Positions 3,071 through 59,200 of a DNA stretch of 64,000 nt are shown here, piece after piece. The notes beneath the pieces were generated by a model, which was not told the origin of the DNA, made no database searches, and worked only from the letters and a program-made list of their open reading frames with translations. A program made the position numbers and the translations under genes. Source of the DNA: Owenia fusiformis (lineage: Eukaryota; Annelida; Polychaeta; Sabellida; Oweniidae); contig CAIIXF020000008.1 of NCBI GenBank assembly GCA_903813345.2, forward strand, positions 29,454,005 through 29,518,004. Direction: 5' to 3'. Numbering within the stretch: position 1 is the stretch's first letter; the number at the start of each line of letters is the position of its first letter.

Positions 3071-3680
3071 CACCCCAGTCACATTTGTCGTACGGAGGCC
3101 GTGCATCGACCGCAGATCAATTAAAAAATCAGTGTATTTCTGCGGCGAGCGTAGCAAAACTACGCTCGCCATGCGGCCTCCGTACGGCGTATCCAGTTTT
3201 TTACAGGCCGCAAGGTCGCCGTAGAAATTATAACTCGGAGTTCATTTCTGAGGTCCCCGTAATAATCAACTGGCTCAACAAGATTGAATCATTATTTGTC
3301 AATGTTTCACGATCACTTTTCATTTGATATTACATCCTAGCACTATGAATGGTTTCCGGACAACTCGGACCCAGGACAACTCGGACCCTGGACAACTCGG
3401 ACCCAAGACATCTCGGACCCAAGACAACTCGGACCCAAGACAACTCGGACCCAAGACAACTCGGACCACTTTTTAAAATAACATCTATAAGTTGTTCCGA
3501 TGTAAATAAAATGAAAAAAGTATTATTTATCAACAGAAATTTAAAATTCACCGTGCGGCTGCCGTGGGAAATGTGACTGCAAAAGTATGAGAGCGCAGAA
3601 ATTCCACGGCGAGCGTAGAAATGTTACTGGCCGCAGAAATGATAGACCGCAAGGTCGCCGTAGGAAATGTGACTGGGGTG
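3071..3680. mobile_element. MITE family A copy 1, Harbinger-like
   Basis: Terminal inverted repeats CACCCCAGTCACATTT / AAATGTGACTGGGGTG flanked by TTA on both sides (3068-3070, 3681-3683), the TWA-type target typical of PIF/Harbinger. Internal GC-rich inverted pieces (TACGGCG, CTGCGGCGAGCGTAG). A 16-bp minisatellite sits inside. No transposase. Confidence 0.75.
3361..3467. repeat. 16-bp minisatellite (CAACTCGGACCCAAGA)n
   Basis: Seven near-perfect copies. Open frames on both strands here are only the repeat read through. Confidence 0.9.
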
Positions 3681-3791
3681 TTAGAGATATCACATAAATA
3701 TAAGATGTCAATATCAACACCATATAAATCAACCATCAACTACGTGATCTATGAATCGAATAAATTTTAATTTCACTCCACATTGACTCAC

Positions 3792-3902
3792 TCTGACACA
3801 GCAAACCAGAATAATTAAGTCCGCAACTGCATGTGTAGCCGTTGACTTGATCTGTACACGTTCCACCATTTAAACATGGATTGCTAGAACACTCATTCGT
3901 AT
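3792..3902 (-). CDS. EGF-like exon 1 (lowest coordinate)
   Basis: 111 nt, phase 1-1, acceptor TTCCAG, donor A|GTGAGT. Encodes [16 protein letters not shown] followed by a divergent second half ([12 protein letters not shown]). It is the most diverged unit of the series and has the O-fucose motif (Thr before the third Cys). Confidence 0.85.
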
Positions 3903-6900
3903 CTGGAATGTACATGTACATTAAAATTACAGTGTAAGTACCGAGAATGATGTGCACATACGCAGTAGATGCTGACCAATGAATCAATTGTAAATTGAAA
4001 AAACAACATGGTAAACTGTATTTTGCCAGAACACTCCATGCGTCTAAAGGTATTGTATTTCGGGACTCATACAGGTTAAGACTAAGCATTCACACAATTT
4101 TGCCATTCCATTATCCTTTCAATACACATATTCAAGTGGTATTGTTTACTTAAGTATAGAATGAAAGTTTTGGGATTCTTTTTTATTTCAGTTTTTTCTT
4201 GAAAGAAGTTTTTATGGAAGAGATTTCATGTATTAAGAAGCACAATGTTTAATTGGTAAATGCAAGCAAAGCCTATTATGACAATATGTTGATATCGACC
4301 CAAGAAATAACTAGAAAAACAGCAACTCCACGGAGTAGCAAATCCCACCGAACAAAACATATTATGCTTATTATAGCTAAGTGTATATGTTGAAATCTTT
4401 GTCCACTTTGTGATAGAAGCATGAAATTTGGCACAAAGTTAGTTTATACCATTGTGAACGAGGCATCATCATATAAAATTTGAACCAAATCCGTTCACTG
4501 GTATATGAGTTATCAAAGATTACGTTTTTTACGAAAATTTGCCGCCATCTTGAAATTCAGCCGCCATCTTGAAAAGTATTTCTTGAACAGAGCTACTGTG
4601 TCCCTAGGCATAATCATATAAAATTTCAACCAAATCTGTTCTCTGGTATTTGAGTTATCAAAGATTACGTTTTTTACGAAAAATTCCGCCAATTCCGAAA
4701 TTAAGCGGCCATCTTGAAAATGTTTTGTCAAACATAGCTACTGTGTCCCTAAGCATCATCATATACAATTTGAACCAAATCCGTTCACTGGTATTTGAGT
4801 TATCAAAGATTACATATTTTTAAGAAAAATAGCCGCCATTTTGAAATTAAGCGGCCATCTGAAAAATCTCTTTTTGTACGAAACTCCTTTGTCCCTAGGT
4901 ACCAGCATATAGAATTTGAATCAAATCCGTCAACTTGTATTTGAGTTATCAACGATTACATTTTTTACGAAAAATGGCGGCCATTTTTAATTGAGGGGCC
5001 ATATTGAAATTTCCTTCTCGAGCAGAGGTCCTACACTCATAAGGCATAAGCCTATAAAATTTGAACCAAATCTGTCAACCGGTATTGGAGTTATCGCCCG
5101 GACACACGGCCAAACGAACGGACGAACGGACGGACAGACGGACGGACGAACGGACGGACGGGTTCTCTATATCCCCCTCGAACTTCGTTCGGTGGGATAA
5201 TGAAGAAATAATGAGTATAATGATTTAACAATTCATAAATCAATGGCAAAACGACTTCCTCATCAAAGGAACTGATTGGAAACGCATAAATTTCGGACCA
5301 CCCTAAAGATGGCCGATCGATAGTGGGTTGCTTTTTCATTGTATTGTAGTATCTAAAAGAAGCCATTGGCAGGCCCTTTGTTCTTTGCCTTGAACTTCTA
5401 CTTATCTTACTACATCCTTGTCTAATATAAATAAGGTTATATGTACCTTTTTGGTATTTAGAAAATAAGCCTTGGCACGTGTGAACTAGACACATTACAG
5501 ATTGCCAGTATGAAGTCGCTCTGTACCTTTTGGGATTTAGAAAATAATTGTGTCAATCAAAAAGATTACTTTTGATGATTGCCGGTGTAAAGGGTGTATG
5601 TAACCTTTTGGATTTAGATAATATGCGTGGCACTTCCAATTAAGCCACACATTGGCAGGTGTTCCTTTGTTCTTTTGCTGACTTTTAAAACAAAACGAAA
5701 AAGACTTGTTGCTATTGACTCACTTATGGCACACTCCGCCCCCTCATATCCAGGGACACAAGTACATGTGTAACCATTGACTGCATCAGTACAAGTCCCA
5801 TTGTTTAGACATGGACTGCTAGAGCACTCGTCTGTATCTGGAAAGTAAAATTAGAATAGGCAATGTGAAGGGTGTATGGGTTTTAGAAAATACACATGAC
5901 AATGAGTGAAACAATATTCATACAAGATACATTCTTGATCTTATTTTTATACACACTTACTTATGGCACACTCCACTCCTTCATATCCAGGGACACAAGT
6001 ACACGTGTAACCGTTGACGTCATCAATACAAGTCCCAACGTTTTGACATGGGTTGCTAGAACACTCGTCTGTATCTGGAATGTGAAATGAGACATATAAA
6101 TATGTCGTACAGAAGTACGGAAGTGTGTACCTCCAAACAGTTCTGACTGTCACTAATATCTTAGTAAGATCATTTAATTTCCAGATCATGTTCGTTAATA
6201 TTGAAGTCGTGATAGCTTTGAAGCGAAATTCCTCACAATTGTTTGAATTAAAGTACTCTTGATGATTGCTGATGCAAAGGATGTATGCACCTTTTGGAGA
6301 TTTAAAAATAAAGTTTGCCACGATCAAAATGTTTATATGGAGCATTTCGGATTTTAGAATATACACATGAAAATGAGAAAAAATACAAACACGTTGCTTC
6401 CAATTTCTTGTTCTAACTTAAAGTATATCAGCTAAGAATTAAAGATACACACTCACTTATAGCACACTCCGCCCCCTCATATCCAGGGACACAAGTACAT
6501 GTGTAACCATTGACTTCATCTATACATGCCCCATCGTTCATGCATGGATTGCTAGAACACTCGTCGGTATCTGGAAGGTAAAATCAGATATAAATATGCC
6601 GTAGAGAAGTGTGTACTTTCAAATAGCTTTGACTGTCACCAATATCTTAGTAAGGGGCGGGGTCAAAATATCAATGTTCATATGGAGACGAAAGTAATTT
6701 CGTTTGGACAACAACCCCCCCACCCCCCCCCCCTCTAGACGAAAGCTTAGGTCACTTAAAAAACATTGATTTATGAGAGGCATAATCGTATCCTATTTGC
6801 CGGGTTATTATTACGGTGAATTAACACACGTTCGCAATTTAACTGCATTGAACTCTTCAAAAGGAGGAGGGAAAAGTACGGAATTTATTTGAAAAATGAT

Positions 6901-17308: not shown

Positions 17309-17345
17309 CTGTATAATTAGAAAGTAGTAAAATTAGAAAAGGCAA

Positions 17346-17445
17346 TGTGATGGACGCATGCACATGTGTAACTGTTGAATTCATATAATAATAATAATAC
17401 AAGCCCCATCGTTTAGACATGGATTGCTGGAACAATCGGCTTTAT
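17346..17445 (-). pseudogene. EGF exon relic disrupted by an (ATT)n run
   Basis: Acceptor TTTTTTAG then [16 protein letters not shown]. Five ATT/ATA codons follow and the frame meets TGA; the rest of the EGF (NSYTCAC) continues in another frame. A microsatellite expansion with a frameshift explains the break. No clear donor. Confidence 0.7.
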
Positions 17446-37950: not shown

Positions 37951-40354
37951 AATAACATGGGAAATATTGTTTTGCACGTTATCCCATTTGAAACATATTT
38001 TCCTTTTAGGAGGTGAACTGTGTCTATTAATTTTTAAAGCAATATTTTGACGCATTTACATTGAAAAAACGAGTGGAATGGAATGAAAATCAGGAAAACA
38101 TTTTTGAAAAAAATATGTTGGTTTGGATTGCACTTTCAATGTCTCTATGAGTGCTTTTCCTTTAGATAATGCATTGGTCTTACATATTGTACCTTTTTAA
38201 ATGATCAGAAAATAACCACAATCAAACATATGACTGTCTAAAATCTGTTGCGATACCTTCCGTGGTCCTTTCAGAATTGTACACTTTACGCAATCCCTGA
38301 CACTAATTTATATAAATAACTATATAGTAATTGCCAAACATGGATTATTATTGCCTATGCACATATACACGATATATAAACAGTAGTGTCATACATCTAC
38401 AAAGTAACAAATTAGTGTTTAATGTGGAAATTAATTAACATTGAAAGTTTCAATTTTTGGTTATCCACAGCTTTCGAACGATTCCAAAATGTTCCTTTAA
38501 CCTCTTCAACTTTTGAAAATAAAAACATATCTTCTTCTTTTTAGCAGAGATATTAATAATAATTTTAATTTAATTAATTTGACTTCTGCGTATAGCATGT
38601 AAACTGTATTGTGTAAGATGCAAAAAAGAACCCTGAGGAAGTCTAAAGTAATGGTAATAGGTAATGAAACAGTTAAACTCAAGTATTGCTAAAATTAGGA
38701 TAAAAGCATTCAGGACATGGTTAAACTAACTTAACAAATACCCATGCCTCCTTTACGTGCCTCCTTTACTTGAAAAGAAACTAGGCGATGCCACCTTTCT
38801 TGAGAATATATTGAATGATGAGACTCTCATTCAGAGATTCCCAGTGACAGCTGGGAGAGCATATTCAAAAGCATACTAAAATGCCTTCCCTTAACCTCTT
38901 GACTACCTGGAGTGACGAGATTTCTCGTCACCTCAGAAATGACCTTAAAACCCAGAGTGACGAGAAAATCCGTCACGAAATTTTTCACTAATTTTGCTCT
39001 TATTTGAACAATTTTCGTCCGATTAACACAAAAATTGTTTTAAAATATGTAGAAATGAGCTTTGTCATCTGATTTTACTATGTTGAGCATCTAAAGCTGT
39101 ATAGTTACATGTATATAGTAAAATGTCAAAAGGTGGCAAAAATGAAAAATTCTCCGTTTCAACCGATTTTAGAGCCTTGGATTCAAAAGGTTAACTCTAC
39201 TGACTTCTTAATGTACAACCCAAACATTTCAAGAATACTGGACAAACGGGTAAGTTTTAAGACAAGGCGGTTCCTCAGACTAAATTATCTTGAAAAGGAA
39301 AACATAGCAATGTTAACTATATTTCGTGTTATTCGAACGCAAGTGATGCAATTTATCATCGCTGATTGTTCGTACACTTCGACCGCCACTCGTAGTTGTT
39401 ATTTGATATTGCATAACTGTTAATATCATGTGTCAGCTGCAGAACTAAGTCTGCAGAATTCTGCTCTCTAAGTTGTATTCTAGCTGTATTTTTAATTTTT
39501 TACATTGTTATGGCACATTGGGTTCTCAAATGTCCACCGCATGACCGTAATGAAAATGACAGTTAATATCATAATGTAAAAATTTGTTATTTAGTTGTAA
39601 AGTCGGAACTAGGCAACTCATGTGTTTCAAGTAGAATCCTGAATATCTAAATAAATATATGCAAAATCAGAGGAAATCTGAAGGTGAACGGACGGAATTA
39701 CTGACAAAATTGAATGTGATCATTCCTAACTATAGTTCACATTTGACCAATAAAATGACCATCCACGCACGTACCCCTCCGTAACTATTTGTCTTTTGAC
39801 GTTAAATTGAAAATATCGTATTGTCATTTCAACCATTCGTTTCAGTAAATTAGATAGTAATGTAAAGTAATATAATTCTGTATGACAAGTACTATAATTA
39901 CAATTTGAGACCCAAAACAATACATTCTTTATTTGACATTTTCGGATTAAAAACAAGATTATGACATTTAAGCCGTTGCTATTATAAAAACGAGTGATTC
40001 ATCTCATATGTGAAAATAGTGCCACTGACGATGTAACTACTGTGAATCCCGAAGGCAATTCACAACATTATACAGACCATCGAGAAGAAATGCATGATGT
40101 GATGAGTGCTTTCGATATTAAGATCGTTATTTAAGACACGCCAAATCATCCTTGAGTTTCAGACAAAATAATAGGGAAATAAAAGGCATAGTAATTGAAC
40201 CGATGAATATGATATGGAATGTTTAATTACACCGAAATACTTTCGAACAAAAATTATAAAAACAGCTCCAAGAGGAGAGTATTTCAGTATTGTATTTCTT
40301 CAAAGTATTCTCTTTGGTCGCAATCTCCGTTTGATCATTCCACAAACCGTGACG
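37951..40354. other. Region upstream of the nAChR gene
   Basis: Apart from the possible piggyBac end, nothing supported. A 104-codon open frame at 39109-39423 has no recognisable domain. Should contain the receptor promoter, but no TATA or initiator can be singled out. Confidence 0.5.
38892..39060 (+). mobile_element. Possible piggyBac-like end
   Basis: TTAA followed by CCTCTTGACTACCTGGAG, then palindromic GTGACGAGATTTCTCGTCAC. TTAA plus CCTTT/CCTCTTGAC-like ends recall piggyBac. No partner end found. Confidence 0.3.
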
Positions 40355-40573
40355 ATGGAACCTTTGATACAATATCTGCTAGTTGTTTTCATAGCAACAG
40401 GACTCCTGACATCATATCCGGTGAATGGGCTGGACCAAGATTCGATGACGCCGGAATTCTCTCTCGTAAAAGACTTGATGGCAAACTACAACCCTAATGT
40501 ACGCCCTGTGAAAAATGCATCTGAACCTATAGTGGTTGCAATGAATATAGCGTTGAATCAAATAATGGACGTG
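40355..40573 (+). CDS. nAChR exon 1 (signal peptide and N-terminal helix)
   Basis: 219 nt, ends in phase 0 at donor GTG|GTATGT. Met at 40355 is chosen because a hydrophobic stretch (LIQYLLVVFIATGLLTSY) follows directly; an in-frame upstream Met at 40214 would bury it. Contains NYNPNVRPV and an NAS glycosylation site, typical of the family; ends LNQIMDV. Confidence 0.88.
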
Positions 40574-43500
40574 GTATGTGGCCGTTTTTTCTCCATGTAA
40601 CCCTTTTGTAGCGGGACTAATCATTTTTTCATAAAGTTTAAGCCACAGATTTGAGCAGCAATGTTGGTATCAATTCAAAGACAAGTAGAGGGGGTTAATT
40701 TGAGATGTGACGATCGAGACATTATTAAATATATTACACTTTCTTCATTATATATTAAAGTACAATCCAAAAATGAATCCCATAATTATACGAAAATTAA
40801 CAAGAGCTGCAAAAAATATGATGCTTTTATTTCATCGCCAATGTCTTATTTATTTAATGGTTTTCAGAGCGAAAGACACCAAACTATAATGACGTCAGTG
40901 TGGCTTTGATACGTGAGTACTACAATTTCATAGTGGTTACTAATTATAAGTACATTATGTTACATTACACATGTTTGAAATACGCGCTTCATAGATCTCA
41001 TTGAGCTAATCAAACTTTTCAAAAAGGCCTTAATAAAGTGTTGTTGTCCTGTTTTAGAACCCCTATTTTATTATTGAAAATGGGTTCTAACAACCTACAT
41101 ATATCGTATGATGATTTGCAGGTTTAAAGTCAATTGTATCCCCATGTTAAGTCAGTACATCCTCACTGAAATTATCATCTTCTCAGAAGAACTCAAGTCT
41201 GTTGAGTCCCAACATAGATACATGTGTTTTTTTTACAATCACATTTTACAATATATTTCTTGATTCTAGTTCCCTTTGGAATAATATTTCTATATACCAT
41301 ACTTAAAATTACTTTATATAATATACAGTTTTTTTGCAATTAGGAGCCTAATATTTTCGCTCTTGTCTTTTGCTCCAAATATAATGTCTCTTGTAGAAAA
41401 TTTTACTGTATTACTGTACTTCTTTTGGCAAATAGACTGAACCAATTTTCAAATTGACTCAATATATTTACATTTAATAAAGAAGTGTTCATATGTGTCC
41501 AGTTTATCTTTACAATACTTGCAGTTTTAATTGTCTACCACAAATATTTGTGGGATATATTCTTTGCATGATCTGGATCTGATCTTAAGTCTAGGTTATT
41601 TAATTTTTTAGGCAATCCAAAATGTTTTCCAAATATATAAGGTTTTGATATTTTAAATTCTATCAAGCTTTTGCTTTTGAAACTTGAATATCTTTTGAAA
41701 TAATCATATTTCTGAATTTCTTTGCATTAATGTCTTTCATCAATATTTTGTTATGGATCCACCTGCATTCACTTTGTGGATTCATTTCTTGCTCTGTGAA
41801 TACCAGGTTATAAGAGCATTCGTTACAACATTATCGATTATATTCTGATATTAATGCAGGATTATTGCACGTAGGATAGTATCGCTAGACTCCATTTTCA
41901 ATTGAAAGAATAATAGGGGTTCTTCAACAGGACATTGGGCTTGCTTTTTATAACTTCCTGTCGACTCTTATTATATGTCTCTGGTCATATGTATGATATC
42001 ACATGATGCATTTACTGCACTTTTTCTCAAATATGTAATATATACTTTCCAATAGAACAATATTAGTAATAAACAGTGTATTCACTCTTAAAAATGAATT
42101 ACTTGAGTATTTCCCAAGTATTTCCCAAGTATAAAAATTACTTAAAGTTAAATACTTAGTTTTACTTCATTTTACTTAGGTTTAACTTATATTGTCATTT
42201 TGAGTTTTTTAATTGCTTAATTATGTAAATGAGTATAACAATTACTACAGTAAGTATTTCAATTTCTCTCCTTGCATTAGTAAATTCACCATAAATGAAT
42301 TACGTAAAAATTACTTTAAAATTATTCAGTAGATCAAGATTATTTGAGTCATTTTTTACTTAAAATGAGTAGTACAATTTCTCAATATAAGGAAATCCAA
42401 GTAATAATTTTTAAGAGTGTTGACTTGAAAATAGGCACCACCTGGTGAGCCATTGCAAATTATTACAAAAAAATAACAACTGAATTGTAAGGCCGAGCGC
42501 AAACCGCTGGTCCAAAAAATTAGCCCAAAACAGTAGGCCCGTGTCATCATAATGTTGTGGTGATAAAGGAACCAGTTGGAACGGACGTCCAAAGGGGATA
42601 AGCGAGGGGTGAATCATTGGAATAAAGGAACAGATAATAAATGTCAATTTGTAATAACTGATGCACGTTTAATCAAGCTGATGATATGCAATAGCTACAA
42701 AAACCTGGGTCAAACTAAGTTAAAAATATTAGTTATTGCGTATATCATATTGCTTATGTCATCATTTCATTTAGATAGTACCGATTGCTGCATTCAATAT
42801 TAATCATATCCTGGTAGATACACACGTTGATCCTTCCTATGTACAATACTGGAACACCGTAATACAAATATTTGTCATGACATTTTGTGCTGGTAGTCTT
42901 GAGCTTATTTTTGAGAATTCGAGAAATGGTGATTCTAAAATGGGTATAAGAATTTATCCGTAGATTCCTACAATTATCTTCCAATTGGATCGTATTTGAG
43001 CCATGCGATTGTAACCGCTTCGGGACAGTCGCTTACCTTTGACCTGTTCCTTTCTTTCCAGCTTAAACATGTTAGTATACCTTTGCAGAGCAATAAACAT
43101 GTTATTAAAGCTTCGGAACAAAGTTCATACCTTGACAAGTTGAATGCATTAACATTGTTAATTGTACGTGTAAACTTTACAGAATCTAGAAGATTCCTAT
43201 CTGAACTATGCTTAGTAAATCTTAAATTAGATATTTTTCTGTCAAACGTGAAAAATGTTCCACTTTTTGAATACCCTATTGATACTTCTACAAAAGGACA
43301 ACCTGGATTTGGGCACACTTTGAAATTTTATATTGTCTTTCAGACCTGGAATGATTATTTCCTGAGGTGGGATGAGTCCAAATATGGAGGAGTAAAAACA
43401 ATCAATCTGTATTCGAAAGATGTTTGGGTTCAAGATATCACCCTATACACGGAGTAAGTTGATCTTAGATATCACCCAATGCCGGATATGGTTGATCCAG

Positions 43501-46500
43501 AATGTAAACATATTCAAACTTAGACGCAACATAAATAGCAAAAACAAAGGGCAACATGAACATGTAACATTATCCATTTACATCAGTATATCCTCCTCTT
43601 TACCACTCATTAGTCAAGTTACATTTTTAAATTGGTTAAAATGAAACAATACTGTATCTGTACATTACAGGAATGACTCGCTGTAGTCACAGGGCTACCC
43701 AAAAACAGAACCCTCTAAAAGTGTATTAATTTCCTAAATACCCATCCTATAGACCTAAATGCATCAGGGCGCCCAATCGCCTAGCCTGAACGTGCTGGCG
43801 CCTCAGCCCTCTCGGCCAACTCGACAACCCCAAAAGAAAAAGTTGTTTTGTTAGTCGATCTGACTAGGGGCAGCTGATGTTAACGCTCAAACACACCAGA
43901 GGAAGCACAACTGACATTCCCTACCCTTTCAATTAGCCACCCTTTCCATTTGGCATTTGTGCTTATATATTTCTAAGTTTGTTGCACAAAATTGATTATT
44001 TGTGATATCATGGATAATCTTAAAATGTGTTCAATGTTCGGAAAATCAGCATCGAGACAAAATCATATCTTGAGAAATTCATAAGGAAATTCCCCAAAAA
44101 CTAGAAACCAAAGTCACGTTAAGTTTGATATTGTAATTGCAAATTGAAGAATAGGCAATGATAAAACACCTACTAAAAATCGGATGACCTGAATTCCTGG
44201 CCTCTGAGCAAGATTCTGCTGCAAGAACACCTCAAATACTGTACATTGGGCGAATTCCCCAGAAATCATTAGTCAGATTTAGATCTATGTGACAAGAAAT
44301 TTGTACAATTGATCTACCAATCTATTCCTTAAGATACAATATCAAACACAATATCTCCCAAATGAGCCATGATATTTTACTAATTGGAAGCTATTAAGGC
44401 GTCAAAGTGCTAGAATGAGGAAATATTGTTTAAAATATCCCAAATGATAAAAATGGTAACCATTAAAATAAAAAATAATACGTTATTGTCAAAATCTTTT
44501 TGTGTTGCGTGACATGTAATTTTAAAGTCGAATATTTAATAAGTTGAAAGAGGAAGAAAGAAGAACTGTTGAACATCTGAATGGAAATATGATGAGTTAA
44601 CCTATATAGGGAGGTTTCTTAGAATGCGAGTATGAGAACAACCGAAAGCACTGTGTGTGATTGCATTGAACGTTGTCCCAAAATATCACCCAGAAGGTGC
44701 AACCATACCTTAAGATGGCTCAAATGTTGCTGAGACACTTCCCCATCATCAACCTCTATATATGCTCACAAAATACAGCTTAACTAGAAGATTATAGAAT
44801 GCGATTGGTTTAAACAAACGATCTGTAATCCTTCGGTTGACACTAATATCACATGTTTCTTCTCTTTCAAAAGTTGGCACATTTTTAATTGACCATAACA
44901 AGAAAAATATCAATGTTATGTAAATTATGTGGTCTCACATTGTCATTCGTAGATTTTAGATTCTGTACATGAAAACTGAAGCTGATAACATAATATTAAT
45001 GTATTAGATCTCATTTTTGGAGGGTTCTGTTTTTTGGGTCACCCTGTATAAGAAACCAAGTGGTAAGTTTGACCACTGTGTCCAGAACTTTACATTTGCG
45101 ATTACGTGGCCAATATTTAGAAACTAAGATAAATAAAAGACTAACATACTGTGTATCTTTGACCTCAACGAGGGTATTAACAGTGAATGCCAAAAATGAT
45201 TAAAATGTCTCCTTCCGTAAACACTATCAATACTTGTAACGAGATTTGGGCAAGTGTAGTTTGATTACTATTATGTTAGTCGTTTAGTTACAATTGTCAT
45301 GAAGCCGCAAATGACCAATTAAAATTGGGAAGTAAAAATCAGTTTCTGCCTGTGCTTTTTTAACTTCTTTTATATTCAAAACCACAAACATACTGCTTCA
45401 AAAAACACGCTTGCCAAATCGAAATCGGCAGTATATTCTAGTATATTTATTTAACCAAGTAACACGGTTTTTTGTTTTGTGTTCTACAGCGTTAAAGGAG
45501 AATTCTACGAGACTGATCCATTTCGAGTAATTTTAACGAGCGACGGAACTGTCCAGTGGAACATTCCAACAAGGCTTGTTAGTACATGTAAATTGGACGT
45601 CCAGCATTTTCCTTATGACTTTCAGACCTGTAAACTCAAGTTTGGATCTTGGACGTTTGGAAGCAACGAGATAGATTTACAAAACAGAACTGCCTCAGCA
45701 GACTTGGCAATTTATGAATCAAACGGAGAATGGGACCTTGTGTCAGTGGATGCGGAGCGGCATTCCATATTATACAACTGTTGTCCAGAGCCTTACATTG
45801 ATGTGACTTACTACATTAAGATCAAACGAAAGCCTCTTTATTACACTTTCAACGTGATCCTGCCCTGTATATTCATAGTGATCATCTCGCCGTTTTCGTT
45901 CCTCGTATCCCCGGGAAGTGGAGAAAGGATACAACTGGGCATCACTCTATTGTTATCTCTGACGGTTTACTTATTGTTAGTTGCCGAGCAATTACCTGTT
46001 CAATCCGAGGGTGTACCATTAATAAGTAAGCATTTAAACTTTTGTAAAAACATATCACGTTCATACGATTATGATGAATAGGTTAAAAGTCAACCAAAAT
46101 GTTGTGATAACATGAAAATAGACTTCATAGCAACCTTTCTAGCGGAACATGGCATACTATTAAGACAAATGATTTCAATTGCTACACTGCATTAGGTTTG
46201 TGACCGCTATGAGAACACGGCATTCCTTTCATTTCTAGGTCAATACTTCATGGTTACGATATTAACTCTGGTCCTGGCGAATGTGGCATCCATAATATCA
46301 GTTCATCTCTATCACAGAGGTTCATTGACAGACACACTTCCACGAAGGACGAAACTGGTGATGCGAAAAGTGGCACAACTTGTTTGCAAAGCAGATGGAT
46401 TTGACGACGCCATTGATATGAGGAGCTCTAAAGTAGTTTCAGAAGATGCGGAACAGGAAAACAATGTGATCAAGAGACTTGATAGTGTAAGTAAATTGTG

Positions 46501-47152
46501 TGTTTATATTGATATCAAACAGGTGAAAATACCAGTAAGCATTCAACACCTCTTGTAAAGGCCCGTTATCTGACTGTGTCTTGGAGAAAGACCCAAGATA
46601 ACAAAGATTTATAAATAAGGCCACTGGGGTTTAAACTACACTGTAGTTGAACATGTAGCATTCTAGCGTTTGTCTGTTATGTATTTTTAAACAATAGTTG
46701 TTCGACCGTGTTAACAATTAAGCTCCCTCAGAATAAGATCATTAGGGAGTGACACAAAATAAGAAAATGCGGGAAAAATGTTAAAATTCTCCCAAAGATT
46801 TACTTGGTAATCGTATAAGATAAAATGAATGCATAATTGTAAAATCTTTAGTTTTCCTCAAATAAAGTATTCATTTTGAGATTTGACATGTCAAGGAATT
46901 TTCAAAAATTGAACCTTTTAGAATATCATTTCATCTATACAGTAATACTCTTGGAATATTTTTCAATATACTTATAAATACTTTTTGTTTTAGCTTCGCG
47001 GATATCACGTGACATCTCAACGAGTTGAGGCGATCAAAATGGAGTGGAAGATGGCATCACTTGTGCTTGACAGATGTCTGATGTTTTTATCCAGTGTTTT
47101 CATAACACTTTGCTCCTTGTGCTTCTTGCTGTATAAACCGAACCAAGATTAA
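40355..47152 (+). CDS. Nicotinic acetylcholine receptor alpha-type subunit gene (six exons, one in-frame TGA)
   Basis: Six plus-strand exons join in frame to about 438 codons. Order: signal peptide (1-26), extracellular ligand domain with loop A (VWVQDITLYT), Cys-loop C158-C172 (13 residues between), loop B GSWTF (W179), loop C Y220-N-C-C-P-E-P-Y227, TM1 from PLYYTFNVILPC, pore TM2 after SGER, TM3 from QYFMVTILTLVL, a short cytoplasmic loop of about 75 residues, TM4 (LDRCLMFLSSVF) and stop. The vicinal cysteines mark an alpha-type, agonist-binding subunit; GER and LLLSLTVYLLL fit a cation channel. The 45-bp and 110-bp exons match the conserved exon plan of nAChR genes. The 45-bp exon has TGA at codon 87, so the gene is either a recent pseudogene, a null allele, or affected by a sequence error. 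Promoter and poly(A) site not identified. Confidence 0.9.
40868..40912 (+). CDS. nAChR exon 2 (45 bp, contains TGA)
   Basis: Exactly 45 nt between TTTTCAG and GTGAGT, phase 0-0, reading SERHQTIMTSVWL-stop-Y. Aligns with the family segment DEKNQ..TTN.WL.Q of the conserved 45-bp exon. TGA is at 40907-40909; CGA to TGA is one transition. Confidence 0.85.
41300..41800 (-). mobile_element. LINE C-terminal fragment in nAChR intron
   Basis: Minus-strand reading contains CKYCKDKLDTYEHFFIKCKY, the CCHC motif found at the C-terminus of CR1/L2-type reverse transcriptases, followed by DIIFGAKDKSENIRLLIAKK, also typical of that C-terminus. Several stops and frameshifts: an old fragment. Confidence 0.6.
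42083..42419. mobile_element. MITE in nAChR intron
   Basis: Inverted ends CACTCTTAAAAAT / ATTTTTAAGAGTG continued by AAGTAATT-type sequence. AT-rich interior full of ACTTA and TTACTT. Superfamily not determined. Confidence 0.6.
43344..43453 (+). CDS. nAChR exon 3 (110 bp, loop A)
   Basis: 110 nt after TCTTTCAG, donor GGA|GTAAGT, starts phase 0 and ends with two bases. TWNDYFLRWDESKYGGVKTI and DVWVQDITLYT hold the conserved Trp and loop A Tyr. Confidence 0.93.
43690..45046. mobile_element. Mariner-type remnant in nAChR intron
   Basis: Left end CAGGGCTACCCAAAAACAG and right end CTGTTTTTTGGGTCACCCTG are inverted copies over about 30 bp (..AGAACCCTC.AAAA). Length 1357 bp fits a full mariner. 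Right flank TA; left flank CA, one base changed. I could not recognise transposase sequence inside. Confidence 0.6.
45490..46025 (+). CDS. nAChR exon 4 (Cys-loop, loops B and C, TM1, TM2)
   Basis: 536 nt after TTCTACAG, donor ATAA|GTAAGC. Carries the Cys-loop, GSWTF, LYNCCPEPY, NRT glycosylation site, TM1 and the pore helix LGITLLLSLTVYLLLVAE. Confidence 0.95.
46239..46486 (+). CDS. nAChR exon 5 (TM3 and cytoplasmic loop)
   Basis: 248 nt after TTTCTAG, donor AGT|GTAAGT. QYFMVTILTLVLANVASIIS is TM3, then HLYHRGS and an acidic loop. Confidence 0.92.
46994..47152 (+). CDS. nAChR exon 6 (TM4 and stop)
   Basis: 159 nt after TTTTAG, phase 0, ends TAA. EWKMASLVLDRCLMFLSS matches the pre-TM4/TM4 pattern (W..VA.V.DR) of the family. 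Confidence 0.92.
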   Translation, partial: LRGYHVTSQRVEAIKMEWKMASLVLDRCLMFLSSVFITLCSLCFLLYKPNQD

Positions 47153-47211
47153 TTGACGGATGTTGCGATGATGTGACTTTTTTCTAAATCACATAATGAC
47201 TTCAATACTAA

Positions 47212-47647
47212 CACCCCAGTCACATTTGTCGTACGGATGCCGTGCGTCCACCGCAGATCAATTAAATCAGTGAATTTCTGCGGCGAGCGTAGAAAAACTA
47301 CGCTCGTCTTGCGGTCTCCGTACGGCGTATCCAGTTTTTTACTGGCCGCAGGGTAGCCGTAGAAATTATAACTCGGAGTTATAATATTTGTTCATTTCTG
47401 CGATCCCCGTAGAAATCAACAGGCCGTTACCAGACCGCAGAGAGGTCCAACGGTGACCGCACGTCGGGTTTGCCGTTGACTTGCGTCTGCTGTATGGTTT
47501 GATGGGTCAAAAACTCGCCGTGCGGCTGCCGTAGGAAATGTGACTGCAAAAGTATCCGACCGCAGAAATTCTACAGTGAGAGTAGAAATGTTACCGACCG
47601 CAGAATTGATAGACCGCACGGCGGCCGTAGGAAATGTGACTTGGGTG
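47212..47647. mobile_element. MITE family A copy 2
   Basis: Same termini and internal segments as the copy at 3.07 kb, without the minisatellite block. Begins 59 bp past the nAChR stop codon, flanked by TAA and TTA. May form part of the receptor 3' UTR. Confidence 0.75.
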
Positions 47648-50074
47648 TTAGTCATACTAATACTAACGCTCCATTTACACCCGGGGCTAAGGGGCGCATT
47701 TTTATTTCGTAGCACCCCCAGAGTGAAGTCACAAATTAAATATTATCATTTTAAAGCTAGTGATTTTAGGTATTCGAAATGATGCATTATTAATAATTAT
47801 TATTAACTCGAATTATAGATCCGCCTGTGTTTAATGTTAAAGGATTTAAGCCCTTGACTCAATGCATTGTGTTGCTGAAACATTCCACTAAGATGTTGTT
47901 TTCAAATCTTTGCTAATTACGTCACTAGAAGACCAATTTATGGGGAAATCATGTAAACTGCTCATCAATCTGTTACTGACACTGAAGGTATAAAACAACA
48001 GATGTTGGATATCGCTGACTTTCATGTATATTTCTCTTTAACATATAAAAAGAAATTCGATTGAACAGAAGACAGAGACTGGTACAAAGTAAGTTTTAGA
48101 GAAACGGTTCTAATGATGTATTTTGGGATGATCCCTCGAGATTATTGTAACATTGTTTTCTTTTGAAAAAGGAAATAAATTCAAAAGTCTGCATTTTGGT
48201 ATTCAAGATCTAATATCTGAATTATATTTTTCTGAAATTAATTTAAGGATTGAATAAGGAAAACATTTTTATGATTTCTAAACGACTGCTTCGAACATTG
48301 TCCATTCTCCATTCTATCCATTCTTTTTTGCTTTACTACGCACCGAAATAGGACAAGTGATGATGGCGTAGCATATGTGTGCAAACTTAACTAAAACAGT
48401 CACATATTGCATATGTACAAACACACAATGAGATAAACAATTGTACGAGGCTTTCGTATGCCTGGTTGAGAGTTAGACTTCAAGTCCAAACATTTGTTCT
48501 GCAAGTATAATGGTATGGTCGTTTTAGCGCCTTGCGACTTTCAGGAATATACCATTCTTTGGATGCATTTGACCAGTTGGCTTGAGCTCAATTGGATCCT
48601 GGAATCAAAACATATGCTATACTTTTACGTATTTACATATACCCATGTAGTTTTGTTACAAATAAATTATTTTAAATACAATTATTAAAGCTTAAACAGT
48701 AAACAAAAAGTGCCAATAGAGACTATGAGAAAGCGTTTATTCGGCGAATTTTGAGATTTTAGATGGCCAGACTTTCGATTACATGTCAAACTATATGTGT
48801 GTCACACTACTCGTACATGTATATGTGTGATTATATAATTACATATCGCATGAATCATAAAGGTTGTTTGTGAATAGCATCATCAATTGTACAGTGGTGT
48901 CGCTAATCTCAATACTTTGTGATCTATGAATGTTTATACTATTCCCAGTTTTAGGGTGTTTATCCCTCGTGAGACATGCACATCTACCTTCGGTCCCTAC
49001 GGTCCCTCAGGTAGATATGCATATCTCTTTGTGGATAAACCCCATATCCAAAACCTCCAAGTACATAAGCCTTATATAGTAGCCGAGACAACACAAGTCC
49101 CAAGTCTGTAAATTTACTCTCGTTTCTTCACTTCAACAAATGCAACATTTTGACGTTATTAATAAATCTCCAAGTTATAAATGACAGATACAATATGGTG
49201 TCTCTAATCTTATTGACAATAACTATCACTAGTTATTTTTTGCCAGTCATCAGATCGTGCATTGGAAGTGTACCTCAATGAGAAATGCATTTATTGATTG
49301 TGGCAAGTAGTGAATTGTCAAAAGAATGTTGGAGTCGCACCATTATTTTGTTGCATTTTGGTGCTTCTTTTCCCATTCAAGGTCGTTTTGGTACCACTGT
49401 GATGTCATAATATATAATTTGATGTCATAATATGGGTACCAAATTGAAGCACACATTACAAGCTTTAAGATGATACCAAATATGTCATCATTCATTTGAT
49501 TCAAATTGTAACTGGAGTAACCCCAAAAGGTATGCCACTCCCCTACCCCATCCATTTTTCAGGCCATTGAAACATGCTAAAATCTCAAATAATGCAGGCA
49601 TCTTCATGGGTCGTTTTTGGCCCCGTTTTATTTAAAATATCATGTTTGTTTAGCCATTTTTCTCGGAAATGTCTCAACTACCTAAAACAGTTACATTTGT
49701 GCTGAATAAGAAAACATTTGGTCATTTTGGAGTTATTACACCAAAAATAGCTAGAGACTTTTATTAATTTCGTCAAAATGTTGCATTTGTTACAAAATGA
49801 CAAATTTTGGTTATAGACCAATCAAAATCAAATGTGTCCCTATTTTTAACAACTAAATTATAATCAAAACCAATGGAATTCTATGTTAGGATTTCTCCAA
49901 GGAATTTGCATGCAAAATGGTGGTGACTTAACTCTTAAAAGTGAAGAAATGAGAGTAAATATACAGACTTGAGACTTGTCTCGGCTACTATGTACCATTT
50001 TGCTTTCCGTATACAAGGTTGAATATATATCGGCGGCCCCGTATTGTTGCTTCAACATAAATAATTGCATTTAT
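47648..50074. other. Intergenic stretch between nAChR and P450
   Basis: Genes converge here. Apart from the hairpin at 48.95 kb I see nothing; the missing last P450 exon should lie here or further left but was not recognised. Confidence 0.5.
48950..49075. repeat. Hairpin repeat
   Basis: Arms TTTTAGGGTGTTTATCC / GGATAAACCCCATATCCAAAA with inner ATGCACATCTACC / GGTAGATATGCATAT around TCGGTCCCTACGGTCCCTC. Confidence 0.65.
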
Positions 50075-50107
50075 TTAAAATAACAATATTAATATGCGGT
50101 TGTGTAC

Positions 50108-50270
50108 CTCTGTTTTCTCACATGGGAGAATTTTCAGTTTACGAACCATGTTAGCAATGCAAAGTCTGACTTCTATCTGAGCGAGGCGCATTGCAACACA
50201 GTTTCTTGGTCCCATCCCAAATGGCTGGTAGAAATATGGATTCCGCTTTGCCTTTTCCTCTTGCGAGAAT
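50108..50270 (-). CDS. P450 exon 13 (heme loop)
   Basis: 163 nt, acceptor TTTCAAG, probable donor GAG|GTACAC. FYQPFGMGPRNCVAMRLA then EVRLCIANMV; the reading frame stays open for ten more codons to a stop at 50075-50077. Confidence 0.93.
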
Positions 50271-53200
50271 CTTGAAAGTACACCAAAACTTGTATATGTA
50301 TCATGGACGTAGCCAGGGGGACGTGCGATGGGTGCGATCGCACCCCTCCCCCGCCCCACAAAAAAATAAAAAAGCAATTTTGTAAAATGTGTTGAAAAAA
50401 CATTAACAGTTTGAAATGCTTAGTTGCACTGCACGTGATACATTTTATAAGATATTCCCAAGAGGAATTAATTTACACTATTGCTCGAAATTAAGCAGCA
50501 ATTATTTGTTTATAATCATAATATGTGACAATAATCCTGATTGGTCATTATATAATGTAGTCACGTGTCCTGATATACTCACTCAAATGTGAAGTGGGGG
50601 AGAATATATAATTTATATAAAATACTCAGTTTTCCCTCTAATTGTTTTCAGCGTACATTATATTTGTACATATATTTCATATATGGCTTGCTACTCAGAG
50701 TCACATATAAAACACAAATAATACAATTTAGTTACCTTTCAGGGATGAACTTCTCTGGTTCGGGATAAATATCTGGGTCATGATGCAACGCATATATGGG
50801 GATTGAAACTATTGCGTCCTTTGGAATAGTAACTCCATCTATTGTAACAGTTTCACCACATCGTCGATCTGTCCTTTTAGCAAAATTTAAAAACCTTATT
50901 GTACCATTATCGTATCTTTATAATGATCATATCATTTAAGTTTATTTCATGTGTATGTTGATACTTTTGATTATATGCTATACAAGGACTGAACAGAACA
51001 GCCAACTTGAAATTGTAAAACTGACGAGGGTTGTCAATTTCACTAATTCTCGGTCAGTGAGAAAAGAACCATGCATTTGTCTTTGTAAGATAAAGACTGC
51101 CTATACTGTGTTCTGATTGGATAATAAGATGATAATAAATTGTGAATAAAATATATTGCTGTTTTAACTTAAAATACATGATATTCATCAAACGAATATC
51201 AATTTATCTTGAAGTTCATAATTCTTTAATTCTTTACACGACGACTGGATATCAAAAGATTTGGCTCTAGGTTTTATCGATAAAGTAATCGTAGTGCTTG
51301 AAAAATATATAATATTGTTATTATATACATTCAAGCCAGTTAATATTATGTTATTTATATTATTCAAATGTCATTAAAGTACTCAATCACTTCAGTTTGT
51401 ACGTATCATTTACCTTGGTGCGTTGGGAAACAGTCGCATCGTTTCTTCAATAACTGTCTCTAAATATGTCATCTTGTTCAGCATCTCGTATGATATCTCA
51501 TCCTATTCATGGTGATTCAAAACAACATGTAATGGGATAATAGTTTTGGACATTTTAGACTCGGTTTACATCATTAGGTGTGCTTTTAGATATTTTCTTT
51601 TGATATGATTAATTCATATTTTCTGTGAAATCACGTTTCACTTCTTACACATTCGACGCTTGTACATGCTAACATGTTTCATTTGAAAGATAAATATGAA
51701 TGGCAGGCCTTTTTCTGAGCGTGAGGAATACGATGGTTAAGAAATAATTGTATTTAGTCTTACCTCATCGCCTAGTAGTTCTGTGATCTCCTCAAATACT
51801 TTTTCTTGTACATCTTGGTGAAGTGCCAGCTCATATGCTACCCAGCCTATTACAGAGGCGACCGAATCATAACCAGCTAGCAGAAAAACCACCGAATTGG
51901 AGAGCACCACCTCTTTATCTAACTCTGGAAGAACAAAAATATGATATGAAACACTGCCGAACATTGGAGAAGATCTATCAATGCACAAGTATTTTTGTAA
52001 AACACATAAAAATTATTGGCAAATATGACTTAATCATTACCGAGAAAAATCTGCTCGACAAAATAAAGTATTTAATTTAAAGAATATTAAAAGTGTCGTC
52101 AATAAAGAATTCACGTGAAGCTAGGCACGAGCGGTCAGAAAATGTACTGTATATGAAAAAAGCTAAGTAAGTTACTTTTAGTTTCATTCTCTGCATCAAG
52201 GGAGTCTATCATCAATTGTAAAAAGTCGTTCTGCTTCTGAAAGTTTAAGGCAGTGGATTTGGATGGATTTAATTTTGTACTTATGTGTACTCAGGGTATA
52301 AACAACGCAACAAACAAAAAACTACACAACCAGTGAGGACTGCATTGATTTCATTCAATGTAATATGAAAAACATTTCCCCTCTTTTCCATGATATGTAA
52401 TTTATTTGCATGAGCCCATGGCCGCTAGTATAAATAATCAGTAAATTTCCACCATGTCCCAAAAACGGTTTCATAGCAAGTTGATAGCAACAGTGATAAC
52501 TGTACTGATTTCATCTAATGTACCACAAAGCTATGATGTGTCATTTATCTCCATGGGGTCAGGGTTGGCTGAATAATCGTTTGTTTTGCCGATGGGCCAA
52601 AATCATCGAGGAACAAAGTTTAAGACATTTCAAAATTTAGTGTACGGGCCGAGGTCCTTTTGGAAAAGGCTTGGCAGAGTTGGCATTAGCAGTTAAGGGT
52701 TCATTCTCCTGATCGTGCAAGATTACATCTCATATACCCCTTTAAATGACCATCATTTATTTGCACACAGAGGTGGGCTCATCTTTCAATGGCATGCACA
52801 ACATTTTGAATCATCTTTGGGTTTTAGGCGGAGAACACAACCTGTTGGTGATCCTTTCCCGATCTGTTAAAATGTTGTTGAAGGGTAGTTAACACTTTGC
52901 TTTTGAGATATCCACAAAGGAAAAGTCACAATTTAGATCAGGGGATCTTTCAATAGCACCAGGCTGGTGCACTGACTTTTGAAATGTCTCAAACTTGTTC
53001 CAAACCCGAATTTGGCTCTCTGTGCAAAAGGAATGATTATTCAGCTAACCATGACCCCAGGAATTATTTTGGCATAACATTGAAAAGACGAGAAACATGG
53101 CCACATGATGCAGTAAATGAAATTGATGTCATTGCTGGTTGTGATTTTATGATTTATTTAAGTTTGTTGCGTTTTGATATGTACTGTAAATATCATTACA

Positions 53201-56200
53201 CAGATATAATATACATGCCATTTCATTCATTGTTAACATTAAATCTAATTATGTCTCCATTGATTTTTATGTACAGAATGGTAACAATAATTCCGTTGCT
53301 CTGCTAAAACGTATAAATGGATAAGCATGCACAAGTTAAGATAAATTATTTAAAAATAAAGTAAAGGCATTACGTTTTGATCCGCCTTCCTATTTGTAAC
53401 AGCTTGTGCCATTATATCTTCATAAAACTTGACTGTTTTAGGAGGAGTGTCCGCTAGCTTCAACTTCTGAATCAATGGAGCTAATATTGGCAGAATTATT
53501 GGCGCTGAAAATAACAGAAATATCTTTAGTTAGTATATCAATTATATTCTACTATGCAAATACAGTTAACAAGGTACTCCATTTAACATTTTAATAAGAT
53601 TAAAAAATAAGTATACACTTGACAAAGATAGTGGTTATGAAACGGTCTATCCATTTGTCTGTGCGTCTGCACATCTCCAACGGTGATATTTATGAAATAA
53701 TTACCAACAGACCTACCAGACATAGGTCGACACCAGCCATTCGTAAGTTGATCAAACCGCAATTTTTATGTGTTGAACTATTTCTTAACCATGATCAATA
53801 TCAAGATATTTCCAGATTTAAAAAGAAAATCCATTTATATTTTCCACTAATTTTATTGTAGATTTATTTGAATTTATGTTAAACGTCCATGCCAACATTA
53901 CTCTCATTCTCACAGCATGCATAACACGATGTGTGCACAATACGAGGGTCGTCCCAGAAGTAATGCACTTTATGCTCCAACTTTATAAATACTTGATATT
54001 CTACATGAAATGTTCAGTGAATATAAATGTGCATGAATAAAGACATTAAAGAGTATGGAGTAAATAGAATAAATGATTAGAATGTCTAAGTAAATATTAT
54101 GGTAAACTGTTCATTGAAGGCGAAACTGCCAGCTCCAAAATTTATGAATTGTTTTTAATTTTGTTTAGTTTGTCCTTTCCATCGCCTAGCTTCTTTATAA
54201 TTATTTATTTAGGTTGAATAAAACAAAACAACTGTATTATTTCGATAAGCTTCTGTGATTGTGTTTATAAGAAATCAATGACTAGAAACTCCTAAGTCTG
54301 TAATTGGAAATTAGCCCTGAAGTTGATGACTTAAATGTCACGGAAATATCGGCCAATAGTTTTACGTTATTTTTTGTTGTCCTTTAATTGGTACTACTTT
54401 AAAGAATGATTATTTTCGTAAGATTTTATTTTGGTAATGTTCGATCGGTATATGTATTTCATATACTTCAGAACTTTGATAGCTTTTGTATTCCATTTAA
54501 TCTAGGATGAAGAAAATCCTAGAAATAAACAACGACACGTCAGAACTTATTTGGAACTCAATGCAACACACATAATCAATGACATAATACAATTTTGAGC
54601 GAAAAAGTAGTTCCTCATGATTTAGTCCATGGTATGAAATCTCTAGGACGTCTAATAAAGGAGTTGGTAGCACACTATAGCGCAGCGATATTTGACCGTA
54701 CATTAACATACCTACATATGTCCCCTAATGATTTTTATTATAACCGTTCAATATACTTCCGGCTTTTAGGCTGAATTATGCCTGCCATTAACAGAGGTCA
54801 AAAAATCACTAAAAAATAAAATCCCAATTTTTCACAATTTGGAGTACACAATGCAACAGAAAATAATACAAAATGATTTTAAATATATATTTATTTATTT
54901 ATTTATTATTTATTTGACAGTCACTTTTATAACAGTGGCACTCAAAGGTGCGTCAATATTACATATATGTAGTATACAAACGATACATTTTTTACTAAAA
55001 TCCGTAGAGGAATATGAAACATAAGCTTTTAGTAAAATCATTAAAATAGGCTAAAATCACGCTGTGTTATGTTTCACATACACCTTTTGCAGAAATCTTT
55101 TTGTACAAACATCAAAATTCCAGCCATTGTCGTGCCCCCAAATGTTAAACACATCATCCCCAAGAATCCACTCTAATTTCATTTGTGGGGGGAAATTTAG
55201 GTACTGAGACACAACAGGAGCATCACATTTACTACTTAAATCATGTATAAATTCAGTTCTTTGTTTCTGGAAATGAGGACAGAGGAGGAAACGATGGATG
55301 GGATCATCTATTACATTTAAGTTACATAATTTACAAAAACCGTTACTTATTTTCCATCTTTTTCTGTCTTCCTCAAGGTTAAAGCAGCCTGTTCTGGCCA
55401 GAAACTTTAGTCGAGAGGTGTAAAAGTCTGTATGGTTCATGAGGTACTTCTCTTTATTTGTATTAAATTTCAAATTTTTATAGAGGTTCAAAGACTTTTT
55501 ATCATTGATTGCTTCAATAAATTCAGATTTTCTTTGATCATTTGAGATTTTGAGAAATGAGTCGTACCAGTCTGCATTTTCGGATGAAATGCATCCGTCT
55601 AGACCATGGGCAGTTAATATCTTTGACACGGAATCAATATATGGCCATACTGAGCTTTTCTTTGCTTTAAAGTTAGAGAACATATCACTGTAAATATCAC
55701 CTAAGATCTTACAACTTTTAGCTCTATTTTTCAAATGAATAAAATAATCTATTTTACGTTTATCTATAACATTCATAATTGGTCTCCAACCTAGGTCACC
55801 AAGTAGAGCGTCCCTAGCTGGTGTACTTTTTATATTAAATATTGCTCTTCCTACATTATACTGATATGAGTTCATAGCATTCATTCTTGTATTATTGTCA
55901 AATGAAATAACTCCACATGCATGGAGAACTGCTGGTATGAAAACATTATTATGTAAAACATCCCCAAATTTGAATCTTTCTAGATTTGAGTGTTTATTAA
56001 GGGTGCTACAGATATAGAATCTGGTCTTTCGAGCTTTCTCTTTAATAAGTGTATTAAAGTGGTCTGAGTCTTTTAGAGTATTATTTAAAATAACACCTAG
56101 ATACTTATATGTTTTGGTTTCTTTTAATGATAGTTGTCCAAGTTTCCATTGATTATTTGTATTAATTTTTCTACCAATTGGCATAATTTGAGATTTCTTA

Positions 56201-59200
56201 GGGTCAAATTTGAATCCCCAATATTTGGCAAATGAGTTAGAAACTTTCAGCATTTCAGTAAGTTGATCTTCAGATTCAGATATCAGAACTACATCATCAG
56301 CATATAAGAGTGCAGGGACTTTGTAGTTTTTAAATGGTATTCCTAGATTATGTTCTTTAAGTCTTTCTGTCAAATCATTTATAATTAAGAGAAATAGTGT
56401 TGGGGATAGAGCACAACCTTGTCTTATTCCAAACTCTGAATCAAACATGTCACTTTCGAAGTTACCAAAAAGAACTTTATTCCTTATTCCCTCATAAAGT
56501 TTTCTCAAAATGCGCCATGGCTTACCCTTAATACCTTTTTCCCACAATTTCTTAAAAAGAAGGTCCCTACTTACTACATCAAAGGCTTTTGAAATATCAA
56601 GAAATGCTAGAAAAGTTTTCAATTTAATGTCTTTCCTTAATGCGCAAAGTCCCTTCAAAGTAAATATACTATCTTCAAGGCGTTTACCTTTCATGAATGC
56701 TCCCTGGAAGTCATCAAAAATTCCTTGTTTCACACAAAAGTCCATTAGTGAGTCTTCCATGAGAGCAGCATAAAGTTTATACATATTTGAGGTTACAGTT
56801 ATATGATTTAGGTTTCTAAGCTACAAGTTTTAGGTTAATTTTCTTATCAATACCAAAAAATATGTAATCAGTGTATCGACGTTTTGTATTGTTTCTCAGG
56901 TATTAATAAGATAAATGCTACAAATGAATCACTTTTATATTGGAATGATAAATGTTTGAATTATGCTACTTTTTCACAAAATGGGTCTCAATACGTTTTG
57001 AGATATGGACTTTTATTCAGCGGTGAAGATTATCAATAAATGCTGGCCTATTGCTCTTCCTTGACTAATTGGGACTACAGCTAAACTTCTATTTCTCGTA
57101 GTAAGATGTGGCTCAGTTGCTTATAAAACAACCATCATGACTCGGTCGAATTCATGAAAAATTGAGAAAAATCGTTATCATTATCTTCCTAAAATTTGAT
57201 TGTATCCAGCGGTAAGGTCAAAGAAGAAACAGCCATCAGAAAACTTGATGATAGCCACAAGTAACGTCGAGGAAGAATTTCAAGGCGCTCGATTACATAT
57301 GACTCTAATTGATTATTAGACATGCCCTTGGAATAAATGAACATTCCAATACCTCTGTAACATTTAATTAGATATAAATTTTACCTATTTGTTTTTGTAT
57401 TATGTTTTGAAAAACATGAACAATAATTTGTTGTTTGACACCTTGCGATTATATGGAAAAATTCTGGTAATAAAATGTTTTAAATGGTAAGAAAACTAAT
57501 ACGTTCCCAATCACAAATTACCTAAATATTCCACATAATTTTGTTGAATCGGCTTGGCTCATATTTGAAAAATTAAACAAAATCTGAAAAACACACTTGC
57601 ATAATTACACTAATTAAACACCGACATCTACGGTAAAATTAAATAGTATATTTTTAAATAATAATAATTTATTTTTGTTCGTATGCTTAGAATAACGGTC
57701 TGTGTCTTATAAAATGTATAAAAGTTCGAATCAAAATACTTACGTTTTTTGACCCCTTGTGATGAAAGACATTTTTCGACCCGAAAGCCGGGAGTTTTTT
57801 CAGCAAATGGTATTTCAAAAGAATCAAGACATGTACACCTTCATAAATATTGCTTCAAATGTTGCTGCGCTATATAGTGTGCTACGGATCCTTCATATTC
57901 GGAAGTCATACCATGGACTAATTGTGGTTTAACCAACATAGCTGTGGTTTATCTAAGATGTCGGGTTGGTTAAACACGTCAATTGAGGACAAAGAAACAT
58001 TTTTTTTAATTTGGCTAGAATATATTTAAATTACCTATCATTGCAAACACTCTCAGGGCAGAAAATTCAAAAAACACTTTTGCATGAGAAGGGAAATCAG
58101 AATCTGGGTTTTTCTGAACATTTGCATCGAAGCCAAATGCGACAGCGGCGACCATATCCATCGTACATTCGGAAGCCATTCTGAAATATATGTGTAGTGA
58201 ATAATAAAATTTGATACAACGTTCAGGGGGTAGTCAGTTTGTAAAAATAGCGTCATTGGCAACTTTAGATTATCAGAAAAATTGAAGTAAAGGTGAATAC
58301 TATAAGAAGACTTAATTTTCACAATCATACTGTCATACTGAAGAAGATAAAAAAATAAAATATGCTCATATTGAGATTGAGACATTAATGATTACCAAAA
58401 AGTTCTAGCTAGTATAACAATAAAAAGTATAAAAAGTACAAATGAGAATGACCCTCAGAGAAAATCGTAAGAAACAATAAAAATGCAATTTGATAATCGA
58501 GGTAAAGTATTTTAAAATGCACTCAAACAAAATAAGACTCATTCTTACTCCTTCATCTCGAATATTTCATCTGAGTCTGCTTTTTCCCCAAGCCTCTCCA
58601 GAAAAATATTGTTATAGACATTTAGGTTGTCCACCATCTGGAAATATGTATACAATGCGATGAGTATCGACAAAGACGTCTGTTCGAATTCATAGAACTG
58701 TATTTCTTATAAAGTGAAGTATGTTGAAATGCAATGTCAAAATAACTATAATATAGTACCCTCTTAAGTTTTCCACTCGTGAATGCCTGGCTCATTACTG
58801 CTCTTGTATGTTTCCATTCGGTGTCTTCCAAGGCCGTGATCATGTTACATATCAGTTTCCCAAACATCGGATGGATTTTCTAAAGAGTTACAAAGTATGA
58901 AAACATTTGTATAATTTGAGGACATGTATTTAATATTATCAATACGGAATAAGCTATTAAAGGTTAAACATCAAGACAGAGGCAGTGACAATAAATTTCC
59001 TATTGTAACGGGCTTCAAATGTGCTGTTCTTTGCCCATTTGTCATTTATCGCATCATTCGCATGTATTCGTATGTATTATGAGTATCATTATAGTATTTG
59101 GTAATTTTTTAGAACTTTAAGAAATTCAAAGATTTCATCGAATCCCTTTCATGTATTATTTTAGATGATATTTGGACACGCATGTTAATAACGCCAATTC

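Follow-up and report, generated by a model that had tools for sequence, protein, structure and literature searches.

An in-frame TGA in the loop D exon of a nicotinic acetylcholine receptor subunit gene of Owenia fusiformis

RESULTS

Structure and identity of the gene

The window, which is the whole 64,000-nucleotide (nt) stretch of Owenia fusiformis DNA that was analysed (C8:29454005-29518004), contains a gene for an alpha-type nicotinic acetylcholine receptor (nAChR) subunit at positions 40355-47152 of the + strand (Table 1). Its six exons join into a coding sequence of 1317 nt (438 codons) that has one internal stop and ends in TAA, and all five introns have GT-AG boundaries. With X at the internal stop, the protein matches Pfam families PF02931 (E = 3.6e-61) and PF02932 (E = 4.9e-22), and its best match among the solved chains of the PDB is human alpha-7. 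Exon 1 encodes a stretch that by eye resembles a signal peptide, and the joined exons carry the motifs CKLDVQHFPYDFQTC, YNCCPEPY, VWL, ITLYT, and GSWTF. The Cys-loop, the vicinal cysteine pair of loop C, and the ligand-site aromatics (which we take to be W in loop D, Y in loop A, W in loop B, and Y in loop C) are all present. This alpha-type gene, which contains introns, belongs to a small set of closely related nAChR paralogues; its reading frame, which in an intact subunit gene would be continuous, is interrupted by the TGA at 40907-40909. The other strand of the window holds two further features noted by eye, an open frame resembling a reverse transcriptase and a set of EGF-like exons.

Table 1. 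Coordinates of the window gene, its paralogues, and other features (unprefixed positions are those of the window)
Feature	Position	Strand	Description
Exon 1	40355..40573	+	219 nt; start codon, beginning of ligand-binding domain; donor gtatgt
Exon 2	40868..40912	+	45 nt, phase 0; loop D; SERHQTIMTSVWL*Y; acceptor ttttcag, donor gtgagt
In-frame TGA	40907-40909	+	Arg codon in 4 of the 4 nearest paralogues
Exon 3	43344..43453	+	110 nt; loop A region, Gln at 43431-43433 replacing the WxPD proline
Exon 4	45490..46025	+	536 nt; Cys-loop, loop B, loop C with vicinal Cys pair, TM1, TM2
Exon 5	46239..46486	+	248 nt; TM3, beginning of cytoplasmic loop
Exon 6	46994..47152	+	159 nt; TM4, TAA stop
Open frame	55057-56820	-	587 aa, resembling LINE-type reverse transcriptase (by eye)
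EGF-like repeat exons	5947-6417 and 17049-17441	-	TDECSSNPC... (by eye)
Paralogue P1	C8:28.877 Mb		45-nt exon SERHQTIVTAVWLRF; codon CGA
Paralogue P2	C8:28.862 Mb	opposite	45-nt exon REKQQTIMSSVWLRF; codon CGA
Paralogue P3	C235		45-nt exon SEKHQTIMTSVWLRF; codon AGA
Paralogue P4	near end of C8		45-nt exon SEKHQTITTSVWLRF; codon AGA
nAChR stretch	C5:40698521		broken; TGA and short deletion
nAChR stretch	C155:13295		broken; TAG
nAChR stretch	C155:4797-5482		broken; stop and frameshift
nAChR stretch	C235:125394		broken; TAA in exon 5-6 fragment, same subfamily as window gene
nAChR stretch	C3:25099914		uncertain; TAG inside TM2
nAChR stretches	C10:3831139, C10:9016009, C10:23212446		appear to be intron or exon-edge artefacts

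The stop in the loop D exon

An earlier, sequence-only reading had reported an in-frame TGA in the 45-bp exon of an otherwise intact nAChR gene. The stop itself is confirmed: exon 2 lies between ...gttttcag and gtgagt, has normal splice sites, is in phase 0, and reads VWL-stop-Tyr. "Otherwise intact" holds for the remainder of the frame, which has no other internal stop, and for the cysteines and aromatics, but not for loop A, where the WxPD proline has become Gln (43431-43433), a change that this reading had overlooked. Exon 2 scores 65 against the 45-nt exons of the paralogues, and no other 15-mer exceeds 29 in a scan of the window's + strand; judged by these scores, its homology to the paralogues' loop D exons is beyond chance.

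The predicted product would end after 86 residues, ahead of every transmembrane segment and the greater part of the ligand-binding domain, and the mRNA, with the stop upstream of four exon junctions, would be an expected target of nonsense-mediated decay. Exon 2 contains three GT dinucleotides that might serve as alternative donors (40894, 40898, and 40900). Only that at 40898 is in frame, and it was rejected as a rescue, being weak by eye (TCA/GTGTGG) and such that its use would remove VWL*Y and with it the Trp of loop D. The other frames of the exon were likewise set aside: frame +1 contains stops, and frame +2 is open, yet nonhomologous and out of frame with exon 3.

Comparison with paralogues

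DNA and protein searches of the genome recovered four near paralogues (P1 to P4), every one of which has a homologous in-frame loop D exon. All four read VWL-Arg-Phe where the window gene reads VWL-stop-Tyr, so that the codon following the stop is altered as well (Phe to Tyr), and 13 of the 15 exon 2 residues are shared, position for position, with one or more paralogues. The disabling change is found in none of these four nearest paralogues, and the window gene has kept its introns. A C-to-T change at a CpG, turning CGA into TGA, would be the likely and shortest route to the stop. The observed/expected ratio of CpG in the coding sequence is 0.84, and because this depletion is only mild, strong CpG hypermutability is not demonstrated.

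A minisatellite of ~34-bp units (L003 ~3600-6150 vs L004 ~4760-5050) makes intron 3 of P3 ~2.4 kb larger than that of P4. Elsewhere, the aligned segments of these two paralogues mostly share 90-96% identity, and the two could be haplotypes or the products of a recent duplication.

Loop A of the window gene reads WVQD (43425-43436, exon 3), whereas the WxPD proline is present in all 27 of the other distinct exon copies read in the genome. These copies comprise P1 to P4, both outgroups, three intronless copies, and 20 fetched exon places picked from ~150 listed (20 of 20 with proline), two of the 20 being the outgroups again. As a single change, the Pro-to-Gln replacement could be tolerated, and it lends weak support to loosened constraint.

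Selection and age of the loss

The codon model covered 397 of the 438 codons in five genes, with the TGA treated as missing data and gapped and boundary codons excluded; outgroups O1 and O2 were kept outside the codon tree because their dS is undefined. On the window branch, omega is 0.30-0.31, compared with 0.20 elsewhere (likelihood ratio test [LRT] 2.8-3.2, P = 0.07-0.09), suggesting a value only marginally above that of its relatives. An omega of 1 on this branch is rejected under all three topologies (LRT 21.8-23.7, P ~ 1e-6). When estimated separately, omega is 0.31-0.33 for P1, 0.18-0.20 for P2, and 0.15-0.16 for the P3/P4 stem. The value for P1, a gene free of stops in the codons read, is as high as that of the window gene.

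Exon 1 of P2 falls outside the codon alignment, and the comparison of lineage-specific changes, over 333 columns, is therefore without exon 1. The window gene has 20 such changes (stop included), a number that does not stand out from those of the other lineages (15 in P1, 23 in P2, and 18 in the P3/P4 pair). At columns conserved in both outgroups as well, there are four changes in the window gene, three each in P1 and P2, and one in P3/P4. The rejection of neutrality and the ordinary number of lineage-specific changes indicate that purifying selection kept the window gene through most of its history.

The window gene has zero further disabling changes, which bounds the age of the loss. With nonsense changes amounting to 4.4% of random substitutions, an indel/substitution ratio assumed to be 0.08-0.16, and an assumed 80% of indels being disabling, the loss is no older than ~1.2-1.8% of neutral divergence (95%, under these assumptions). 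Species diversity of this order is common in marine invertebrates; if that of O. fusiformis is similar, a segregating null allele would be as likely as a fixed one. Searches of the assembly DNA with positions 40300-41000 and with exon 4, in which very common words were skipped, gave no sign of a second haplotype: no further near-identical copy of this locus turned up.

The whole case for loss hangs on one base, and an erroneous base or consensus call in the assembly, with a sense codon and a functional gene underneath, would account at once for the integrity of the rest of the gene and for its purifying selection. Moreover, CpG cytosines are error-prone for some sequencing methods. Such an error is nonetheless unlikely, given that the typical long-read error is a homopolymer indel and the change here is a substitution, that the neighbouring codon also departs from the four paralogues, and that the altered WxPD motif is a second independent oddity.

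Possible routes around the stop

Skipping of exon 2 would preserve the frame (45 nt, phase 0-0) and yield a subunit without loop D, either nonbinding or a dominant-negative partner. The past purifying selection on the gene as a whole could be read in its favor, as could the skipping of the corresponding 45-bp exon in a spinosad-selected strain of Tuta absoluta (PMC5111602). Both splice sites look normal, however, and the match of 13 of 15 residues to paralogues suggests that the exon was in use until recently. In addition, human alpha-7 without the corresponding exon 3 gave no current in oocytes with either acetylcholine or the agonist 4BP-TQS (PMC5111602), and, by analogy, an ordinary receptor would not be restored by skipping. 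Taken together, these points make skipping quite improbable. Regular skipping with the loop-D-less subunit selectively kept to modulate the receptors that its paralogues form is very improbable; if true, it would make loss of a loop D exon a route to a new regulatory subunit.

Decoding of the TGA, whether by readthrough, A-to-I editing to TGG, or selenocysteine insertion, is extremely unlikely, even though the frame after the TGA stays open for 351 codons and is receptor-homologous. The paralogues carry Arg at the site, rather than Trp or Cys. The context here is TGA-TAC, in contrast to the strong readthrough motif TGA-CTA, and a G preceding the A disfavors ADAR. No Rfam SECIS was found in 40000-50500 at E values of up to 5 (two snoRNA matches were far below gathering), and the potential for a stimulatory RNA stem 3' of the stop is unremarkable (z = -0.38). 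As for an editing duplex, 2 of 23 inverted-repeat pairs touch exon 2 (17 nt; 82% and 76%), and neither reaches the TGA.

A replacement loop D exon within the same gene would follow the precedent of insect alpha6, in which mutually exclusive exons 3a and 3b are described (PMC6393475, PMC5111602). An alternative 45-bp exon in the same intron, which the sequence-only reading had named as grounds for giving up its claim, was sought in introns 1 and 2 and is absent. None of the 14 AG-45nt-GT/GC candidates in these introns resembles exon 2 (best score, -1 vs 65), and any other 15-mer in them scores 20 at best, with no likeness to loop D. Nor did a comparable loop D exon turn up in the rest of the gene or in the scan of the window's + strand, which leaves this explanation with almost no probability.

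Other broken nAChR copies in the genome

Eight other nAChR stretches flagged with stops were read. Four of them are broken and one is uncertain; the remaining three look like intron or exon-edge artefacts (Table 1). Given these broken copies, a stop in an nAChR gene is less rare than it appears.

Several additional arrangements were seen among the nAChR sequences. Long intronless frames spanning the entire ligand-binding domain occur on C155 (a 25-kb contig), C9, C11, C2, and C5; several are open for >450 codons, and some have stops. A loop C-TM2 exon is present as a tandem pair within ~460 bases at C10:23212446-23212907 (L019), and the two copies might be alternative exons like the exon 8 variants of insect alpha6, and two copies of a loop A exon of the 110-nt type, ~480 bases apart at C1:13788079 and C1:13788563 (L022 and L024), are also possibly alternative. 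Two fragments belong to the nAChR subfamily of the window gene, one of exons 5-6 with a TAA (C235:123501-127000, L011, spanning the broken stretch at C235:125394) and one of exon 6 (C235:223001-226000, L012). L011 is very AT-rich (GC, 0.16) and holds an open frame of 3101 aa.

DISCUSSION

The window gene, as represented in this genome copy, is probably a very young null allele or pseudogene, recently disabled by a point mutation. The single stop, the intact remainder, the sense codons in the paralogues, and the past purifying selection all argue for recent loss; the Pro-to-Gln change in loop A fits slackened constraint, and the same genome holds four further broken copies or fragments of this family. 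On the other side, the codon model does not demonstrate relaxed selection on the window branch, the omega of the stop-free P1 being equal. The sequence-only reading had left four options unranked, and among them recent loss or a null allele is now the best supported, readthrough or recoding is unsupported, and skipping would offer no ordinary rescue.

If the stop is real, a gene loss has been caught in its opening stage within a large receptor family, in a gene with one lesion and a footprint of selection, alongside four apparently intact relatives. The gene could then serve to measure turnover in the nAChR family. No new mechanism is indicated; this is a new instance of a kind of change familiar from insects.

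A literature search on Owenia and nAChRs gave one paper, which uses Owenia sequences in a tree, and a search on nAChR pseudogenes that segregate turned up no relevant paper among the matches listed. The lophotrochozoan nAChR family is large and lineage-specific, with tandem and retroposed copies, and its low-expressed, intron-poor copies have been called consistent with inactive pseudogenes (PMC6896357). The window gene shares the setting of an expanded family with those copies but is intron-bearing and complete and is no retrocopy.

The nearest published event is the spinosad resistance allele 3aQ68* of Cc-alpha6 in the medfly Ceratitis capitata, in which C202T creates a stop in exon 3a (PMC6393475). 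As in the window gene, a C-to-T nonsense change lies in the exon containing loop D, and the medfly mutations are non-lethal (PMC6393475); truncated medfly products do not, for the most part, reach the membrane (PMC10672392). The two cases differ in that the insect exon 3b can bypass the stop and selection by insecticide is known, neither of which is seen in the window gene. In Tuta absoluta, skipping of the 45-bp exon 3 of alpha6 is associated with spinosad resistance (PMC5111602). This corresponding exon likewise encodes 15 residues, and its skipping entails the loss of loop D, but no DNA lesion responsible for it was found in Tuta, whereas the window exon holds a stop and its skipping is hypothetical. 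The truncating alpha6 alleles of Plutella xylostella arose by natural point mutation in a subunit thought to be redundant (PMC2792709) and resemble the window gene in that a point mutation is predicted to truncate an nAChR subunit; in Plutella, the mutation affects the splice junction of intron 9, and the truncation falls between TM3 and TM4.
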